Shown here in pieces: positions 3,538 to 39,825 of a stretch of DNA of 43,454 nucleotides (positions are counted from its first letter, which is position 1; each line of letters opens with the position of its first letter). The notes under the pieces are model-generated. The model made no database searches. It saw only the letters and a list, made by a program, of their open reading frames with translations, and was not told the DNA's origin. A program made the position numbers and the translations under genes. Location of the stretch: contig JAFUSA010000021.1 of assembly GCA_017480745.1 (NCBI GenBank), positions 1 through 43,454 of the forward strand. Direction: 5' to 3'. The DNA comes from Alphaproteobacteria bacterium (GTDB taxonomy: Bacteria; Pseudomonadota; Alphaproteobacteria; RF32; CAG-239).

Positions 3538-4308
3538 TTATTTATCAAAACCGAGCGTCATCTTAACACCATCCGTATCATTTCTTTTATTTGCTTCTAC
3601 TACAGCAGAGCATCTGGTGATTGCCGTATCCAAATCAGAAGGAATATTGATATATGTTAGAGCCTCATCTTCTGTATCTGTCAATTCTATTCTTGTGGCA
3701 CCGGAAACTGTCCAATCTTGACTTACTAATTCGATACAAATTTCTTCATCATTAGGTAAGTAATATGCAATACCAAAATCAGACCAGAGAGCTAACTCAA
3801 CCCTACCACCGAAAGGATTGGTAATAGACATAATTTTGCCATCAGTTACGGTAATCATCTCATCAGGGAATATTTTGGCTTTTTTAACTATCGGACAGCC
3901 ATCGTTGGAAGATTGCCCAGAGCAACCGGCACTATTGCAAGAGCAACGCACTCCATCATAATTCTTCTGTGGTCCCCAAAAGGCACGCACATTACCGGCA
4001 ATGAGGGTTATTTGCTCAATGGTTTTGTTGATACGATATTTCATCATGGCTTTACTATATCCGGCGATTCCACCAACAGATAAAACACCGATTATGGCCA
4101 ACACACCAAGCATCTCAATCATACTTCTCCCGCTCTGCGGGCATCTGCTGGTTATTTTTTCGCTCATGTACCTCTTATTGTACACGTCGCTCAAAAACAA
4201 CGGCGCATCTGCCTTAAATATCGGAAGAAGTGAACGACCACTCTGCACGCTTTTCGTCACTGCGAGCGAAGCGTGGCAATCTACATTTTTTATTTCAAAG
4301 TTTTTCAT
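3538..4308 (-). CDS. Type IV pilin-like/pseudopilin protein, paralog 1
   Basis: A 256-residue prepilin-like protein. A 60-residue leader ends in Q-S-G, then the putative mature part begins RSMIEMLGVLAIIGVLSVGG, which matches the class III prepilin site with glycine at -1, Glu at +5 and a hydrophobic helix. Position +1 is Arg, not the usual Phe or Met. After AGYSKAMMKYRINK comes a globular domain with a Cys-rich insert (CSCNSAGC, near residues 124-130) and a further conserved block up to the last cysteine. AGGAGAT precedes the ATG. It stands alone behind a leader RNA (4349-4535) and is paralogous to genes at 27330, 31452 and 32505. No pilus assembly genes are in the window. Extracellular or periplasmic filament function is inferred. 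Confidence 0.8.
   Translation of the reverse strand: MKNFEIKNVDCHASLAVTKSVQSGRSLLPIFKADAPLFLSDVYNKRYMSEKITSRCPQSGRSMIEMLGVLAIIGVLSVGGIAGYSKAMMKYRINKTIEQITLIAGNVRAFWGPQKNYDGVRCSCNSAGCSGQSSNDGCPIVKKAKIFPDEMITVTDGKIMSITNPFGGRVELALWSDFGIAYYLPNDEEICIELVSQDWTVSGATRIELTDTEDEALTYINIPSDLDTAITRCSAVVEANKRNDTDGVKMTLGFDK
4255..4281 (+). repeat. Palindromic repeat-like element inside the prepilin leader
   Basis: The sequence runs CGTCACTGCGAGCG then AAGCGTGGCAATC. It has the form of the CGTCATTGCGAG...GCAATC palindromic elements known from Rickettsia and other alphaproteobacteria. It is read in frame, on the opposite strand, as residues 10-19 of the pilin-like protein. A diverged copy is at 33204-33230. 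Confidence 0.5.
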
Positions 4309-4348: not shown

Positions 4349-4535
4349 CCGCCAAACGGCGGTCGGGAGAGCTGATAAATCATATACAATCAAATGATCC
4401 CCATAACCTTTAAGCCTAAGCTCTGAACATCCGCTATGGACTCCCCGACCAAATCGGAGATATCATCATAAAATTTCAACGATGCGCAGCATCGGATTGT
4501 ATAAGAGCCTATCAGAGCTCCGAACCGAAGTTCTG
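4349..4535 (-). ncRNA. Structured 5' leader RNA, class A copy 1
   Basis: This untranslated leader is conserved with 27095-27290 and 33291-33481. Visible elements in transcript order: the hairpin GAAC-TTCG-GTTC; the hairpin CGATGC-TGC-GCATCG (4494-4480); a conserved GATATCTCCGATTTGG block; GGTCGGGGAG (4450-4441), which can pair with CTCTCCCGACC (4371-4361); the small hairpin AGC-TTAG-GCT; and the terminal hairpin CCGCC-GTTT-GGCGG (4362-4349) followed by TTAAAATTTT. Transcription should start within a few bases of its 5' edge. Riboswitch, protein-binding leader or attenuator roles are all possible. Confidence 0.65.
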
Positions 4536-27060: not shown

Positions 27061-27089
27061 TTGACAAAGAAAAGTTTTTATAATATTGT
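27061..27089 (+). promoter_or_regulatory. Promoter of pilin-like gene 2
   Basis: TTGACA and TATTGT are 17 bases apart, and five bases later the CAGAAC edge of the leader RNA begins, as at the two other class A copies. Confidence 0.65.
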
Positions 27090-27094
27090 AAAAG

Positions 27095-27290
27095 CAGAAC
27101 TTCGGTTCGAGAGTCTTGAAAAGCTCTTAATTTACGCGGTGTTCTAACATCGTTACTTAGTGTATGATATATCTCCGATTTGGGTTGGGGAGTCTTTAAC
27201 GGATGTTCAGGAACTTTGTTCTAAAGGTTAAAGAGGTCATTTCGTAAATTATGATTTTTCAACTCTCCCGGCCGCCGTTTGGCGGTCAAT
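27095..27290 (+). ncRNA. Structured 5' leader RNA, class A copy 2
   Basis: Same order of elements as 4349-4535. The GAAC-TTCG-GTTC tetraloop hairpin is at 27097-27108. The hairpin CGGTGT/ACATCG lies in 27137-27152, and the GATATATCTCCGATTTGGG block follows. GGTTGGGGAG (27183-27192) is able to pair with CTCTCCCGGCC (27263-27273). The hairpin GAAC-TTT-GTTC is at 27211-27221, and the terminal hairpin CCGCC-GTTT-GGCGG (27272-27285) is followed by TCAATTTTT. Several base pairs differ from the other copies yet still pair, which is evidence for the structure. Confidence 0.7.
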
Positions 27291-27329: not shown

Positions 27330-27914
27330 ATGAATAATTTAGAAATTAAAAATCAAAATGGACGCTCTATGATAGAAATGTTGGGCGTGTTGGCTATAAT
27401 CGGCGTGTTATCGGTAGGCGGTATCGCCGGCTACTCAAAGGCAATGATGAAATATCGTGTTAATAAAACAATTGAGCAAATTACGCTCATTGCTGGAAAT
27501 GTACGTTCGTTTTTTGCGCCACAGGGAAACTATGATGGAGTTAATAATACAACAGTTATTAAAAAAGCCAAACTTATGCCAGATGAAATGTGGGATAGTA
27601 ATGAAAATAAGTGGGTAAATGCTTGGGGTGGAACATTTGCTTTGGGACAATTGGACTGGTATGGTGATGCTAATCATAATAAATATTTCACCGTTGATAT
27701 ACATGATATTCCTCCGGAGGCATGTATAGATATTGCTACTCAAGATTGGCGTGAAGCTAATATTGTATTAATAGATATAAATGACGGAGGATGCCGTTAT
27801 TTAACTCCGATTCCACTTGAAAATGCCGTTAGTTGTTGCTCCAATGATGTTAATTTGCTAACGTCAGTTTTTGATCAAGATAGGAATTTTCTCAAAAGTA
27901 AATTTAATTTATAA
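27330..27914 (+). CDS. Type IV pilin-like/pseudopilin protein, paralog 2 (short leader)
   Basis: A 194-residue prepilin-like protein with only an 11-residue leader (MNNLEIKNQNG) before RSMIEMLGVLAIIGVLSVGG, Arg at +1 and Glu at +5. The helix continues AGYSKAMMKYRVNKTIEQIT, as in the paralogs. The C-terminal domain includes KKAKLMPDEMW, an Ala/Gly-rich WGGTFALG strand and the conserved C-I-D-I-A-T-Q-D-W segment, and it ends with a C-C pair. The sequence agrees with the minor-pilin/pseudopilin fold. AAGGAGAT precedes the ATG. It is a single-gene unit behind a class A leader. No secretin, ATPase or prepilin peptidase lies nearby, so the machine it serves must be encoded elsewhere. Confidence 0.82.
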   Translation: MNNLEIKNQNGRSMIEMLGVLAIIGVLSVGGIAGYSKAMMKYRVNKTIEQITLIAGNVRSFFAPQGNYDGVNNTTVIKKAKLMPDEMWDSNENKWVNAWGGTFALGQLDWYGDANHNKYFTVDIHDIPPEACIDIATQDWREANIVLIDINDGGCRYLTPIPLENAVSCCSNDVNLLTSVFDQDRNFLKSKFNL

Positions 27915-31209: not shown

Positions 31210-31237
31210 TTGACTTTTAAGCTTTTTATGATATAAT
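31210..31237 (+). promoter_or_regulatory. Promoter of pilin-like gene 3
   Basis: TTGACT and a perfect TATAAT are 16 bases apart. The spacer ends in TTTTTATGA, exactly as at the promoters of pilin-like genes 1 and 4. Confidence 0.75.
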
Positions 31238-31242
31238 GGAAC

Positions 31243-31416
31243 ACAAGATAAGGTAACTTGTCTGGGGTATCCTAACCTCTTACAAATCAGCTGTAAAAAG
31301 CGTTGAATTTTCCGGCTTTGGTCGGAAGGTCGTGGAATAGATATGGTTGAATACACGGCACTATTTGATTTGTAATAGTTAGGAACTTCCGGCCGCCTTT
31401 ATCGGGCGGTTGTTTT
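31243..31416 (+). ncRNA. Structured 5' leader RNA, class B
   Basis: This leader of pilin-like gene 3 differs in sequence from class A. ACAAG/CTTGT form a 5' hairpin. TCCTAAC (31270-31276) pairs with GTTAGGA (31378-31384), and TTACAAATC (31280-31288) with GATTTGTAA (31367-31375), making a long helix that closes a multibranch region with an internal TTCCG/CGGAA hairpin. A terminal hairpin CCGCC/GGCGG (31393-31409) with TTGTTTT follows. The plan matches class A: promoter, long-range helix, GC hairpin with a T-rich tail, then the gene. Confidence 0.6.
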
Positions 31417-31451: not shown

Positions 31452-32204
31452 ATGAAAAACTTAAAAATTAAAAATATAAAGAGTCATCAATCGCTGAGCC
31501 TTGCAAAGGCGAATGCGTCAAGGGATATTCAAATTAATAAAAAAGCGGAAGATGCCTTGACGATTACTACGGAATCGAGGCATGACCATAAGTGTGGCTC
31601 TACCACACAAAGCGGACGCTCAATGATTGAGATGTTGGGCGTTCTTGCTATCATCGGTGTTTTATCGGTTGGTGGAATCGCCGGATATTCAAAAGCCATG
31701 CAAAAATATCGCATCAACAAAACCATTGAACAAATAACTCTTATTGCCGGCAATGTGCGTGCATTTTTTGCTCCGCAAAGAAATTATGATGGATTAGATT
31801 CATTCACTGCTGATGGTCGGAAAATTATTCAAAAAGCCAAACTTGTGCCTGATGAAATGTGGAATGAAGATAAAACAGCATTGGTAAATGCTTTTGGAAA
31901 CTCTTTTTATATTGGTATGACATCGGGTGGAGAAAAAGGTTTCTATATTTGGAATATTATTGATTCTATTGAATGTATCGAATTAGCATCTTTCGATTGG
32001 CAAAATGCTAACGCTGCTGCGATACAAATAAGCTATGGTATTGCATATATAAAAGGATTTCCTTTGCCAACGCAAATGACTGATATTGTTAACGCTTGTT
32101 CTGATGCATATGGTTATGGAAAGATAGATTTCATTGCTTATTTTGATATAGATTCACCCAATGCCTATACCTCAGAAAATTTACCTGCGTTTGCAGTATA
32201 TTAA
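31452..32204 (+). CDS. Type IV pilin-like/pseudopilin protein, paralog 3
   Basis: A 250-residue prepilin-like protein. A 55-residue leader ending T-T-Q-S-G precedes RSMIEMLGVLAIIGVLSVGG (Arg +1, Glu +5), and the helix runs on as AGYSKAMQKYRINKTIEQIT. The globular part shares KKAKLVPDEMW-like and C-I-E-L-A-S-x-D-W segments with the paralogs and ends with one late cysteine. AAGGAA precedes the ATG. The long leader begins MKNLKIKN, like the others, so the extra 44 residues relative to paralog 2 look inserted after residue 8. Confidence 0.8.
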   Translation: MKNLKIKNIKSHQSLSLAKANASRDIQINKKAEDALTITTESRHDHKCGSTTQSGRSMIEMLGVLAIIGVLSVGGIAGYSKAMQKYRINKTIEQITLIAGNVRAFFAPQRNYDGLDSFTADGRKIIQKAKLVPDEMWNEDKTALVNAFGNSFYIGMTSGGEKGFYIWNIIDSIECIELASFDWQNANAAAIQISYGIAYIKGFPLPTQMTDIVNACSDAYGYGKIDFIAYFDIDSPNAYTSENLPAFAVY

Positions 32205-32504: not shown

Positions 32505-33257
32505 TTATTTTACAACAAAATCTTTCCAAAAGTTACTATTTCCGTCTGAATTAAGCATAAATATTATTTCTGCAGAAGTTGCTGAACAAAGGTTAATTGC
32601 ATTATCCATACTGACGGGGATGTTATAATATCTTTCACCACCATCCACGGTTCCTATCAGAGTTATTCCGACACTTTTCCAATCATTTAACACTAATTCT
32701 ATGCAAGCTTCTTGAGGGACGTTATAAAAATCTATCAGAAAGGCCTTATTATCACCATCGTCAGTCTTAGAACATGGAAGTATATCGACAGTGCCTCCAA
32801 AAAAATTGCAAAGACTATCATTACTCACTCCGCACCACATTTCAGCCGGTACTAACTTAGCCTTTGTAAACAATTTTTTGCGGTATTCCAGAGGGTCTTG
32901 ACATTCTTGGCAACCTAAATCTTTATAGTTAGCCTGCGGAGCAAAAAATGCTCTTATATTTCCGGCAATTAAAGTTATTTGCTCAATGGTTTTATTGATG
33001 CGATACTTCATCATGGCTTTGCTGTAACCTGCAATACCGCCGACAGATAAAACACCAAGCATCTCTATCATACTTCTTCCGCATTGCGGCACATCTGCTG
33101 GACTGTTTTTCGCTGATGTACTACCTGTGTACACGGCACTCAGAACAGCTGGCGCATCTACACAATTCTCCGGAAGAAATAGACGAGAGCTCTGCGCGTT
33201 TTTCGTCTTTGCGAGCGCAGCGCGGCAATCTATATTTTTTATTTCAAAATTTCTCAT
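32505..33257 (-). CDS. Type IV pilin-like/pseudopilin protein, paralog 4 (shortened helix)
   Basis: A 250-residue prepilin-like protein with a 60-residue leader ending P-Q-C-G. The mature start is RSMIEMLGVLSVGGIAGYSK. Compared with the paralogs it lacks six residues (AIIGVL) between two GVL units, so its N-terminal helix is one and a half turns shorter. The leader is alignable with that of paralog 1 over its whole length at DNA and protein level. The globular domain has a C-Q-E-C pair, a KLVPAEMWC segment and the shared C-I-E-L-V-x-x-D-W. AGGAGAT precedes the ATG. It is convergent with paralog 3. Confidence 0.78.
   Translation of the reverse strand: MRNFEIKNIDCRAALAKTKNAQSSRLFLPENCVDAPAVLSAVYTGSTSAKNSPADVPQCGRSMIEMLGVLSVGGIAGYSKAMMKYRINKTIEQITLIAGNIRAFFAPQANYKDLGCQECQDPLEYRKKLFTKAKLVPAEMWCGVSNDSLCNFFGGTVDILPCSKTDDGDNKAFLIDFYNVPQEACIELVLNDWKSVGITLIGTVDGGERYYNIPVSMDNAINLCSATSAEIIFMLNSDGNSNFWKDFVVK
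33204..33230 (+). repeat. Diverged palindromic repeat-like element in coding sequence
   Basis: CGTCTTTGCGAGCG then CAGCGCGGCAATC matches the element at 4255-4281 at most positions and lies at the same place in the prepilin leader. Confidence 0.45.
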
Positions 33258-33290: not shown

Positions 33291-33481
33291 AAAAAACCGC
33301 CAAACGGCGGCAGGGGAGTTAATCAATCATATTAACTTAAATGATCCACGTAATTTTTAGGCGTAAGCCCTGAACATCTATCACGCGCTCCCCGCCCAAA
33401 ACGGAGATATCATCATATTAGTTAACGATGCAAAGCACCGAAGTTAATAAGAGCTGATTAAGGCCCCGAACCGAAGTTCTG
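33291..33481 (-). ncRNA. Structured 5' leader RNA, class A copy 3
   Basis: The third class A leader. GAAC-TTCG-GTTC comes first, then the hairpin CGGTGC-TTT-GCATCG (33440-33426) and the GATATCTCCGTTTTGGG block. GGCGGGGAG is able to pair with CTCCCCTGCC, the hairpin GGC-TTAC-GCC follows, and CCGCC-GTTT-GGCGG is followed directly by six T residues. The last element is a textbook intrinsic terminator lying inside the leader, 36 bases before the start codon. Confidence 0.7.
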
Positions 33482-33486
33482 TTCTT

Positions 33487-33514
33487 ATAATATCATAAAA
33501 AAATCAAAAGTCAA
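33487..33514 (-). promoter_or_regulatory. Promoter of pilin-like gene 4
   Basis: On the minus strand, TTGACT and TATTAT are 16 bases apart, with TTTTTATGA at the end of the spacer and the leader edge CAGAAC five bases downstream. Confidence 0.7.
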
Positions 33515-33780: not shown

Positions 33781-33855
33781 GCGGGTATAGCTCAGGGGTA
33801 GAGCGCAACCTTGCCAAGGTTGATGTCGTGGGTCCGAATCCCATTGCCCGCTCCA
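33781..33855 (+). tRNA. tRNA-Gly (GCC), likely integration site
   Basis: A full cloverleaf. The acceptor stem is GCGGGTA with TGCCCGC, the anticodon stem-loop is CAACC-TTGCCAA-GGTTG giving GCC, the T-arm is GTGGG...CCCAT, and CCA is encoded. The gene is intact. A tyrosine integrase pointing toward its 3' end lies 320 bases downstream, the usual arrangement for an element inserted at a tRNA. Confidence 0.95.
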
Positions 33856-34177: not shown

Positions 34178-35425
34178 TCAAGCATTTCCTGATGGTTGTA
34201 AAAATAATTGCTTCATATTTGCTAAATGAGATGATTGGTCGTAGTATTGCTCAATCATCTTAACACTCGTCCCACATTGCTTTGCTATGTTTATTGTTGG
34301 AATTTCATTTTGAACAAGTGTGCTGATATAAGAGTGTCTGTATGAATACAATACTTTTGAGTTGGTATGCTTTATGCCACATCTATCAAGCAGTTTCCTA
34401 AAACCATTGTCCAACTCATTGACTGCTTTGATTTCGTAATGTTTTTTCTCATCATTACCATTACAAATACTTATGATACGGACTTCATCATCATTGAACG
34501 GAATATTGTGTTTCTCACAGAAGTCTTTTTGTTGTTCGTACATTGTGTTCAAAAGTTTTACGAGATTCGGTGATAGAGCAATACTGCGTTTTTCATTCTG
34601 TTTTCTGCTATACACATCTACGAACAAACCGCCTTCGGCATAATTACCGATAAATTGACTCCAAGTCAAAGTCCTTAATTCACAAGGTCTAATGCCACAT
34701 TCGTAAAGTATGCTGATGTAATTGTATAGCAACTCTTTGCGGCGTTTGGTGTGCTTGTTTATCTCGTTGGCAATTTCTTTTTTCAATGTGCTGAATATCA
34801 AGTTGATTTCATCACGAGTGAATGAATCTCTTTTGCCCGACAAGTCCTTAAAGACAGGATTTCCCTCGTCATCAAAACGATTCTCCTTGCTCTTAATTGT
34901 CGGCAGTGTCAGTTGTTTTTTCATCCTGCCTGTCTTATAGCACCAGTTGAGGAACGAACGAAGCGTGTTGTTCTCACGGATAATCGTAGTCGGTTTGCAA
35001 TATTGATTGGTCTTCTTTGACTTCAACTCCCTGCGATAATCCACATACTTAATCAAATCCAAGTTAGTGAGTTCGTCAATATCACGGATTTTTCTTTTGT
35101 TGCCGATGATGTCGCTAAAATACGGAATGAACAGACGGTTCATATATTCCTTGTGTTGTGGGTTGTTAGTGATGGCAATAAAATCCAAAGCATTCTTCTT
35201 AAAACTCTTTTTATCAAGTCCTTCAGGTGAATAATCTGCCACATAACCCAAATATAACTCTCTTGCTCTTTTTAAGGCAGCTTTTTCATCATCTGTTTTC
35301 AATGATTGACGGACTATCTCTCCCGTTAATTCCTTGCCCATATAAAACTGATAACTGCTGCCCCTTTTACTGATGGTGTATCCATCAAACTTTATCTTTT
35401 CTTGTTTATTTTGCCTCTCTTTCAT
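34178..35425 (-). CDS. int: Tyrosine recombinase (phage-type integrase)
   Basis: A 415-residue site-specific integrase. After an N-terminal arm-binding-like domain comes a SAM-like core-binding domain (about residues 75-180, with RENNTLRSFLNWCYKTGRM). The catalytic domain has Arg in CGIRPCELRTL, the box II YSYRHSYIST (His and Arg), and the nucleophilic tyrosine in MIEQYYDQ. Length and order match integrases of integrative elements. It reads toward tRNA-Gly and should catalyse insertion and excision of the element that extends to the right of the tRNA. Its promoter overlaps a palindrome (35520-35535). Confidence 0.93.
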   Translation of the reverse strand: MKERQNKQEKIKFDGYTISKRGSSYQFYMGKELTGEIVRQSLKTDDEKAALKRARELYLGYVADYSPEGLDKKSFKKNALDFIAITNNPQHKEYMNRLFIPYFSDIIGNKRKIRDIDELTNLDLIKYVDYRRELKSKKTNQYCKPTTIIRENNTLRSFLNWCYKTGRMKKQLTLPTIKSKENRFDDEGNPVFKDLSGKRDSFTRDEINLIFSTLKKEIANEINKHTKRRKELLYNYISILYECGIRPCELRTLTWSQFIGNYAEGGLFVDVYSRKQNEKRSIALSPNLVKLLNTMYEQQKDFCEKHNIPFNDDEVRIISICNGNDEKKHYEIKAVNELDNGFRKLLDRCGIKHTNSKVLYSYRHSYISTLVQNEIPTINIAKQCGTSVKMIEQYYDQSSHLANMKQLFLQPSGNA

Positions 35426-38907: not shown

Positions 38908-39825
38908 TTACATTTTATCACCATTTTTATAGATAATGGTTGCTTCTATTTCCCCATTCTTATTATAGCGTTTCATGATTCCGTGTTTTACTCCATCTTT
39001 AAACGGTGTTTCCCACTCCAATTCTCCCGTTTCGTAATATTCTTTTTCATAACCTTCACATTTACCGCTTACATAGTTTGATTCTGACTTTAAGCGTCCG
39101 TTTTCATAATATTCATGAAAGAAACCGTTATTTGGTTTAGTATCTAAAACATCTTCCCATTCTTTATGAATTAATCCATTAGGATAATATTCAGCATAAT
39201 ATCCCTCAGTAATATTGTTTTTATAAAATCCTTTACGTTTAATTTTTCCATCCTCAAAGAATTCTTTAATAGGACCATTTAATTTACAATTACGAAAAAA
39301 TCCCTCTCTTTCCAATTGTCCGTTTTCGTAATATTCACGCACAAAACCTGTATTTGCCTCATTTTCTAATATATTTTCACATTCCTTTTTTATTTGTCCA
39401 TTAGGATAACACTCAATATAGTGCCCCATTCTTGTTCCTTCTATATAATTCTCCTCATATCGGAGTTTTCCATTTTCATAATACGAGCGGACAAATCCGT
39501 TGTAAGGTTTCTCTCCAAGTATTTCTTCGTTTATTTCTGCAATATTTCCATTTTCATGGTAAATTTCACATCTGCCACAAGGTATCCCTTTATGATAATT
39601 GAATTTACTTTTAATTTTTCCGTTTTTATGATATTCAATTGTTGTTCCGTGTATTACACCATCTTTATAAGGTGTTATTGATTTAATTTTTCTTTTGAAT
39701 AAACCACCATCATAATATTCTTTTACAACTTTTGTATCACCTTTCGCTATACTTCCCAAAACAATAATACCAAGTAATATACACCACCAGTATTGAGTTA
39801 AAAAATCTATTGTTTCTTTTTCCAT
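38908..39825 (-). CDS. Membrane-anchored MORN-variant (YwqK-like) repeat protein
   Basis: A 305-residue protein. An N-terminal membrane helix (YWWCILLGIIVLGSIA) leads into about ten MORN_2-type repeats of the pattern EYYENGKLxxExNYxxGxxxG from residue 35 to the end. The family includes YwqK-like antitoxins of polymorphic toxin systems and many cell-surface repeat proteins. No toxin-like partner is seen next to it. Repeats may bind a partner protein or membrane lipids. The start is preceded by a modest GGAT. Confidence 0.75.
   Translation of the reverse strand: MEKETIDFLTQYWWCILLGIIVLGSIAKGDTKVVKEYYDGGLFKRKIKSITPYKDGVIHGTTIEYHKNGKIKSKFNYHKGIPCGRCEIYHENGNIAEINEEILGEKPYNGFVRSYYENGKLRYEENYIEGTRMGHYIECYPNGQIKKECENILENEANTGFVREYYENGQLEREGFFRNCKLNGPIKEFFEDGKIKRKGFYKNNITEGYYAEYYPNGLIHKEWEDVLDTKPNNGFFHEYYENGRLKSESNYVSGKCEGYEKEYYETGELEWETPFKDGVKHGIMKRYNKNGEIEATIIYKNGDKM

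Follow-up and report, generated by a model that had tools for sequence, protein, structure and literature searches.

The closest described counterparts of the leader RNAs analysed here are antisense RNAs of phage immunity. In phages P1 and P7, the C4 RNA and its a1b1 target (RF01695, RF03163) are laid out as a promoter, a hairpin, an ordered pair of target segments, a spacer and the antisense RNA. The antisense RNA consists of a closing stem starting with GG, an arm, a loop with one antisense segment, a free second segment and a closing strand ending in CCACC/GACC(A/G)CC. Specificity is determined by the loop segment, which varies, and RNase P cleaves C4 precursors at a GGW sequence (PMC5320573). 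The CI RNA of phage P4 is processed from its own untranslated leader and pairs with a complementary upstream target, seqA, which results in premature termination of transcription (PMC4825925). At the Gifsy-1 IsrK/STnc1160 locus (RF01394), one leader has two exclusive folds, a silent cis-paired fold A and an active fold B, and the silent fold is shifted in trans (PMC4825925). Group 1 C4-like sRNAs of Acinetobacter baumannii occur as many copies within a single genome that differ in the a′ loop (PMC5320573). Another RNA of relevance, sRNA-Xcc1 (RF02221), has until now been viewed as a stand-alone, integron-encoded sRNA (PMC2996969, PMC12444791); its founding member, an RNA of 88 nt, was obtained by cloning and had its ends mapped (PMC2996969).

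Leader RNAs in the window and in the genome

The window, the whole 43,454-nt stretch of alphaproteobacterial DNA that was analysed (contig JAFUSA010000021.1, assembly GCA_017480745.1), contains four leaders, three of type I and a divergent one of type II (Table 1). The preliminary description of this DNA placed the three type I copies correctly and took them for paralogous leaders of pilin-like genes, and a pilin of the Pfam PilS/Bundlin type does follow each window copy; it overlooked the fourth copy and the roughly 180 copies present genome-wide. The type I window copies lie about 40 nt 5′ of the pilin ribosome-binding site, and each is directly preceded by a TTGAC(A/T)/TATAAT-like promoter sequence, which at copy 1 takes the form TTGACA...TATGATA.

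Table 1. Positions of leaders, their parts and the adjoining pilin genes in the window
Feature	Positions	Strand	Remarks
Leader copy 1, type I	4349..4534	-	R1 match, 199.6 bits
Leader copy 2, type I (element under study)	27096..27285	+	R1 match, 175.0 bits
Leader copy 3, type I	33297..33480	-	R1 match, 201.5 bits
Leader copy 4, type II	31244..31410	+	R2 match, 176 bits (copy 4 itself among the 21 training sequences of R2); R1 31.3 bits, E 4e-7
Promoter-like site, copy 2	27061..27089	+	TTGACA-17-TATTGT
Promoter-like site, copy 3	33487..33514	-	TTGACT-16-TATTAT
Promoter-like site, copy 4	31210..31237	+	TTGACT-16-TATAAT
5′ hairpin P1, copy 2	27097..27108	+	GAAC-UUCG-GUUC; opens the target module
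Target segment b, copy 2	27116..27122	+	Flanked by GAGA and GCTC, which can pair in an alternative hairpin
Target segment a, copy 2	27128..27136	+	Found in no other of 83 type I leaders
Hairpin P3, copy 2	27137..27152	+	
S5, copy 2	27183..27192	+	GGTTGGGGAG; begins GG; 3′ arm of P4 (fold A) or 5′ arm of stem S (fold B)
P8 5′ arm, copy 2	27236..27240	+	
Antisense segment a′, copy 2	27243..27251	+	Paired with a (fold A) or in the P8 loop (fold B)
Antisense segment b′, copy 2	27255..27262	+	Paired with b (fold A) or single-stranded (fold B)
S3, copy 2	27263..27273	+	CTCTCCCGGCC; 3′ arm of stem S (fold B), overlapping the start of P7
P7 terminator-like hairpin and T-rich tail, copy 2	27270..27287	+	
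Target segment b, copy 4	31269..31275	+	
Target segment a, copy 4	31280..31290	+	
Antisense module S5...S3, copy 4	31320..31394	+	GGTCGGAAG...CTTCCGGCC; portion akin to RF02221
P7 terminator-like hairpin, copy 4	31390..31412	+	CGGCC common to P7 and S3
Pilin gene of copy 1	3538..4308	-	Pfam PilS
Pilin gene of copy 2	27330..27914	+	Pfam Bundlin/PilS
Pilin gene of copy 4	31452..32204	+	Pfam Bundlin/PilS
Pilin gene of copy 3	32505..33257	-	Pfam PilS/Bundlin

Models R1 and R2 place about 180 leaders in the 1.6-Mb genome of this gut bacterium, about 90 of type I and 94 strong places of type II, and these counts are lower bounds in a draft assembly of 34 contigs with a limited number of candidates scored. 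A pattern search for the P4 hairpin yields 58 places, and 187 leader places were parsed. The pilin genes also number about 180. A query with the pilin N-terminus scored 150 of 182 candidates, none of them with an internal stop, and a leader lies at most 500 nt upstream of 145 of the 150; two of the five scored genes without a leader begin at a contig end. A few leaders precede other genes (for example, a glycosyltransferase and lipoproteins) or have lost their pilin, some are fused into the pilin, and contigs (C14, C26) end in leaders. At P7, 81/89 and 93/96 leaders have four or more T among the first 8 nt.

A fold that pairs target and antisense segments in cis

The leader begins with a 5′ target, in which segment b precedes segment a, and continues into a self-folding 3′ RNA; the hairpin loop (a′) and a single strand (b′) of this RNA show complementarity to the target. 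Fold A is predicted to join target and antisense segments in cis (a with a′, b with b′) and to let P7 form in full. In a plain MAFFT alignment of 18 copies from the same genome, which was not fitted to a model, 96.6% of cells are paired, both sides of the pair change in 30 of the 59 pairs against 11–15 with slid partners, and none of 500 shuffles attains any of the measures. Among 83 type I leaders, in an alignment fitted to the model, 97.6% of cells are paired and both-sided change is seen in 42 pairs, against 16–21 with slid partners. The claim of the preliminary description that compensatory changes reveal a selected RNA structure is thereby strongly supported, far beyond chance. The base pairs listed there are also right: CGATGC/GCATCG, CGGTGT/ACATCG and CGGTGC/GCATCG belong to hairpin P3, and the second set to hairpin P6.

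The longest covarying helices are P2b, P2c and P5. Up to six pair types occur at one position of P2c, and P2b and P2c are paired in essentially every one of 26 leaders from many genera, with the exception of the outermost P2b position. These two helices form the minimum-energy fold in cis, and in the window copies the full leader is about 13–16 kcal/mol more stable in fold A than in fold B. Three blocks of type I leaders, GCTCT, GATGTTCA and TAAAG, are conserved and unpaired. A junction stem Px, in which J3/4 would pair with ATCAT, was dropped, as it is only 82–86% paired with few compensations; the pairing of ATCAT with ATGAT (P8) reaches 98%.

A second fold formed by the 3′ module

The 3′ arm of P4 (GGUCGGGGAG) is complementary also to the strand 5′ of P7 (CUCUCCCGACC), with which it can form a closing stem S, and the complementary ATCAT and ATGAT, flanking a′ on both sides, can form hairpin P8. 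The pairs of S and P8 are found in nearly all copies and are mutually exclusive with those of P4 and P2. Fold B, comprising S, P8 and the hairpins common to fold A, is 98.5% paired, with both-sided change in 24 pairs against 6–12 with slid partners; the pairs of S and P8 are absent from the model behind the alignment. Within type I, most of the fold B covariation comes from P5/P6 and the other hairpins common to both folds. The stronger support for fold B is provided by matched changes between groups, not by type I alone. Stem S of type II reads GG(U/C)(C/U)GGAAG/CUUCC(G/A)(G/A)CC, each position being paired in at least 91/92 type II leaders, and ATCAT/ATGAT in P8 of type I corresponds to ACTAT/ATAGT in type II, which amounts to two compensated pairs. 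Relatives display GGUCUGGGAG with CUCUCCAGACC and similar matched changes, and candidates for S, P8, a/a′ and b/b′ are present in all 28 relatives examined. Taken by itself, the 3′ module adopts S, P5/P6 and P8. The opening GG of S5 occurs in at least 82/83 type I copies.

The terminator-like P7 has bases in common with stem S; full P7 is possible in fold A and is shortened in fold B, where shortened P7 hairpins can still form. The single fold seen in the preliminary description is real and incomplete: P2b, P2c and P5 went unnoticed there, and the sequence points to two folds that exclude each other, both of them conserved.

Pairing specific to each copy

The a segments of all 83 type I copies differ. 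Of the 83 type I targets, 80 pair best with the antisense of their own leader (-17.4 vs -5.0 kcal/mol), as do 72 of 80 type II targets; at least some of the eight type II failures are parsing errors, and 10 further leaders were left unparsed. G-U pairs account for 1.5% of P2b and 3.8% of P2c, against 15–27% in P3, P5 and P6. The dispersion of a is no greater than predicted by column shuffles (0 identical pairs, with 0.92 expected), so that selection for orthogonality is not proven. Diversifying selection on a was likewise considered and rejected, because the first correlation, by which a seemed decoupled from relatedness, was a part-whole artefact; with every stem taken out of the reference, none of the stems shows an appreciable correlation. 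The weaker statement alone stands, that copies differ and no two type I a segments are identical. There is no second target around the ribosome-binding site, where cognate pairs perform no better than noncognate ones (mean z -0.15), nor one within the first 400 nt, in the coding region or upstream.

The same RNA in related genomes

The search of related genomes suggested in the preliminary description recovered further copies: R1 has matches in 30 of 56 related genomes, and the wide model R3 in 47 of 385 genomes of the class, distributed over 39 genera. In these relatives, the RNA mostly lies about 20–60 nt 5′ of an open reading frame. Pilins are not its general partner: the genes behind relatives' leaders encode lipoproteins, outer-membrane proteins and barrels, glycosyltransferases, BspA-type repeat proteins, and HTH and Rha-type phage regulators. 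A genome of the same genus contains 31 matches, and nearly all of the 20 fetched copies precede secreted BspA-type-like leucine-rich repeat proteins, an assignment (LRR_5) based on two proteins tested by Pfam. In this genome, a different surface family has multiplied with the same leader class, instead of pilins. Many of the secreted proteins at these loci (L328-L347) share a conserved C-terminal tail ending in ENMIEWIFE.

The idea that pilin genes of these bacteria generally carry the leader was discarded: in gut metagenome-assembled genomes with pilin expansions outside the lineage (for example, from roe deer rumen), the fetched loci contain no such leader. Large pilin families of other gut alphaproteobacterial assemblies (L281-L325) carry a different short conserved leader with TTGCAAAAAAAAAAACGGTTTA.

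Kinship with sRNA-Xcc1

An Rfam scan of the window returned nothing above cut-offs except tRNAs, copy 2 alone gave just two chance-level matches, and no riboswitch or leader family of Rfam matches the window leaders. RF02221 (sRNA-Xcc1) matches the 3′ half of the leaders at three loci (L076, L078, L079) and of type II copies, in all cases below the cut-off; the best score in the same genome, 34.7 bits for a type II copy, does not reach the gathering score of 53 bits. One related genome (G229) has an RF02221 match of 56.2 bits, above the cut-off, within the 3′ half of an R3 match, that is, of a homologous leader. This co-location indicates that the 3′ half of the leader is kin to sRNA-Xcc1 and belongs to the same family. 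The leaders and sRNA-Xcc1 have in common a 3′ module made up, in this order, of a closing stem, an arm and a P8-type hairpin, and an upstream target as well. They differ in the RF02221 core AATACAATACCC(N4)GGGGAATA, in place of which type I has GATGTTCA..TAAAG and type II GAATA..GAATA.

In 11 of 12 members of the RF02221 type, an ordered upstream pair of segments is complementary to the member's own hairpin loop and single strand. The RF02221 core pattern matched more than 120 viral stretches, and among 65 distinct viral modules a strong upstream target was found for 49% of cognate and 1% of noncognate combinations. All 10 of the scanned proteins downstream of viral Xcc1-type modules are phage antirepressors (AntA, Rha, P22_AR, KilA-N, Bro-N). 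The Rfam sRNA-Xcc1 family seems to cover just one half of the RNA. On this view, sRNA-Xcc1 would no longer be a free-standing sRNA acting in trans, but the 3′ half of a leader that unites target and antisense and belongs to phage antirepressor genes. Members of sRNA-Xcc1 with an upstream target module are located 5′ of phage antirepressor genes at loci L269-L280 and L348-L427.

Likeness to phage immunity RNAs

Within 9.5 kb of P1, R3 scores highest on precisely the a1b1-C4 stretch (235-421), though the match is weak (E 0.0047, 16.6 bits). Rfam calls C4 and c4-a1b1 on the same stretch, and RF01394 scores on P1 a1b1 too. The order in the P1 record is promoter, a1, b1, C4, a2, b2, icd, ant1, and the modules follow each other in the sequence as in the leaders, with our a corresponding to b of P1 and our b to its a. 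The C4 features outlined at the beginning, from the promoter and ordered target pair to the closing strand and the variable loop segment, recur in the leaders, which also share the C4 arrangement of two antisense segments, one in a loop and the next in a single strand, facing an ordered upstream target. The leaders depart from P1/P7 C4 in their sequence, too distant for the Rfam models, in their pilin genes and in their roughly 180 copies. RF01695 and RF03163 have no match in copy 2 alone at E up to 10 or in the other window copies at gathering thresholds, and c4-a1b1 appears below threshold only in one relative (L077, 23.9 bits). In P1, C4 acts through a second target over the ribosome-binding site, and the gene is icd-ant; a second target of this type (a2/b2) at the downstream ribosome-binding site is absent from pilin leaders. 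The antirepressor operon expected downstream of C4 is replaced by pilins in this genome, and antirepressors occur in the viral Xcc1-type relatives. A direct BLAST comparison of the leader with phage records gave no match; the link to phages is made through the structure model and the Xcc1 core only.

The other systems resemble the leaders in part. P4 CI is, by its published description (PMC4825925), an antisense RNA of an untranslated leader with complementary seqA upstream, as in the leaders; no counterpart of its downstream target seqC was found in pilin leaders. The two exclusive folds of the Gifsy-1 IsrK/STnc1160 locus are paralleled by folds A and B, but there a short 5′ RNA acts in trans, and the gene order and downstream open reading frame differ. 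The Group 1 sRNAs of A. baumannii number 21 copies and, as described in PMC5320573, are not coupled to one gene family, as opposed to about 180 leaders nearly all situated on pilins. The predicted architecture of the leader is that of phage a1b1-C4, hence not an unknown class. The preliminary description, which recognised no known class, holds in that no Rfam family exceeds its cut-off in the window leaders, and needs amendment for the RF02221 kinship and the a1b1-C4 layout.

In the phage-type relatives L271, L272 and L274 (5′ of the RF02221 match) and in P1 (L327, about 285-315), target and antisense module are separated by a terminator-like hairpin that has a T-run. The counterpart of this hairpin in the pilin leaders, P3, lacks such a run; there it is P7 that resembles a terminator.

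Proposed mechanism and alternatives

The leaders are probably self-contained antisense attenuators of the phage immunity type (P1/P7 a1b1-C4, P4 seqA-CI) that moved from antirepressor operons to surface genes. Fold A would be the default and would cut most transcripts short before the gene. When the leader adopts fold B instead, S and P8 would form, a′ and b′ would be exposed and P7 shortened, and cleavage by RNase P at the GG opening stem S would free an RNA of about 90 nt. As fold A is the more stable, the release of the antisense RNA would need help or kinetics. In trans, the freed RNA would act solely on its own gene, whose target matches it, because a differs between copies, and would set the frequency of read-through of that gene. 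Processing, trans action and attenuation are thus extended to the pilin leaders by analogy. By comparison with P4 CI and P1 C4, we lean towards self-repression as the net effect; self-activation, which the overlap of S and P7 would allow, seems distinctly less likely.

The leader might instead be an attenuator or riboswitch working in cis only, with the long P2 helix merely closing a domain that binds a ligand or protein, and without release of an antisense RNA. P2b and P2c do form in cis as the minimum-energy fold, the conserved unpaired blocks resemble a binding site, the terminator-like P7 comes next, and cis pairing of a with a′ could alone account for the covariation without any action in trans. 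Such a device nevertheless strikes us as unlikely, since S and P8 are conserved and covary between types and relatives, yet are incompatible with P2 and P4; the 3′ half alone is akin to an sRNA family founded on a cloned RNA (PMC2996969); the same layout acts in trans in P1; and G-U pairs, common in P3, P5 and P6, are nearly absent from P2b and P2c.

Two further explanations dispense with regulation of this kind. A constitutive 5′ element, by which strongly expressed mRNAs for surface proteins are stabilised or insulated, would suit the stable 5′ UUCG hairpin, the long helix and the position of the leader, almost always 5′ of surface genes in its own genome, but it leaves unexplained the two exclusive folds, the copy-specific a segments and the occurrence 5′ of phage antirepressor and HTH genes, and is improbable. 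Lower still stands the probability that the leaders act at the DNA level, as repeats through which pilin genes recombine or undergo gene conversion. The large number of dispersed copies, the leaders that lack a pilin or are fused into one and the contigs that end in leaders are compatible with such repeats; compensatory base pairs are not expected of them, however, and the copies have their own promoter-like sites, intact pilins and low identity in stems.

Under the antisense attenuator reading, every pilin gene might be governed by an RNA switch of its own: a phage immunity RNA adopted by the host and amplified across a family of surface genes, each copy with a private address. A bolder and rather doubtful extension is that about 180 mutually orthogonal immunity modules hold each surface gene in its own self-sustaining on or off state, with one or a few pilins displayed at once and switchable without DNA rearrangement. 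This would constitute antigenic or adhesive variation run by antisense RNA. Separate control of each of about 180 pilin genes in one bacterium becomes testable.

Other features of the window

A palindrome-like repeat, GATTGCCACGCTGCGCTCGCAATGACG, is found at 31 places in the genome, in the window at 4255-4281 (-) and 33204-33230 (-). In many pilin genes it falls within the prepilin region (peptide DCHAALAMTK), and it resembles the Rickettsia palindromic elements. The pilin of copy 3 lacks residues of an otherwise near-invariant hydrophobic segment (EMLGVLSVGGIAG vs EMLGVLAIIGVLSVGGIAG). A phage-type integrase gene (34178-35425, -) lies near tRNA-Gly (33781-33855) and leader copy 3, which suggests an island. 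The window also encodes a MORN-repeat protein (38908-39825, -) with internal direct repeats of 110 nt.
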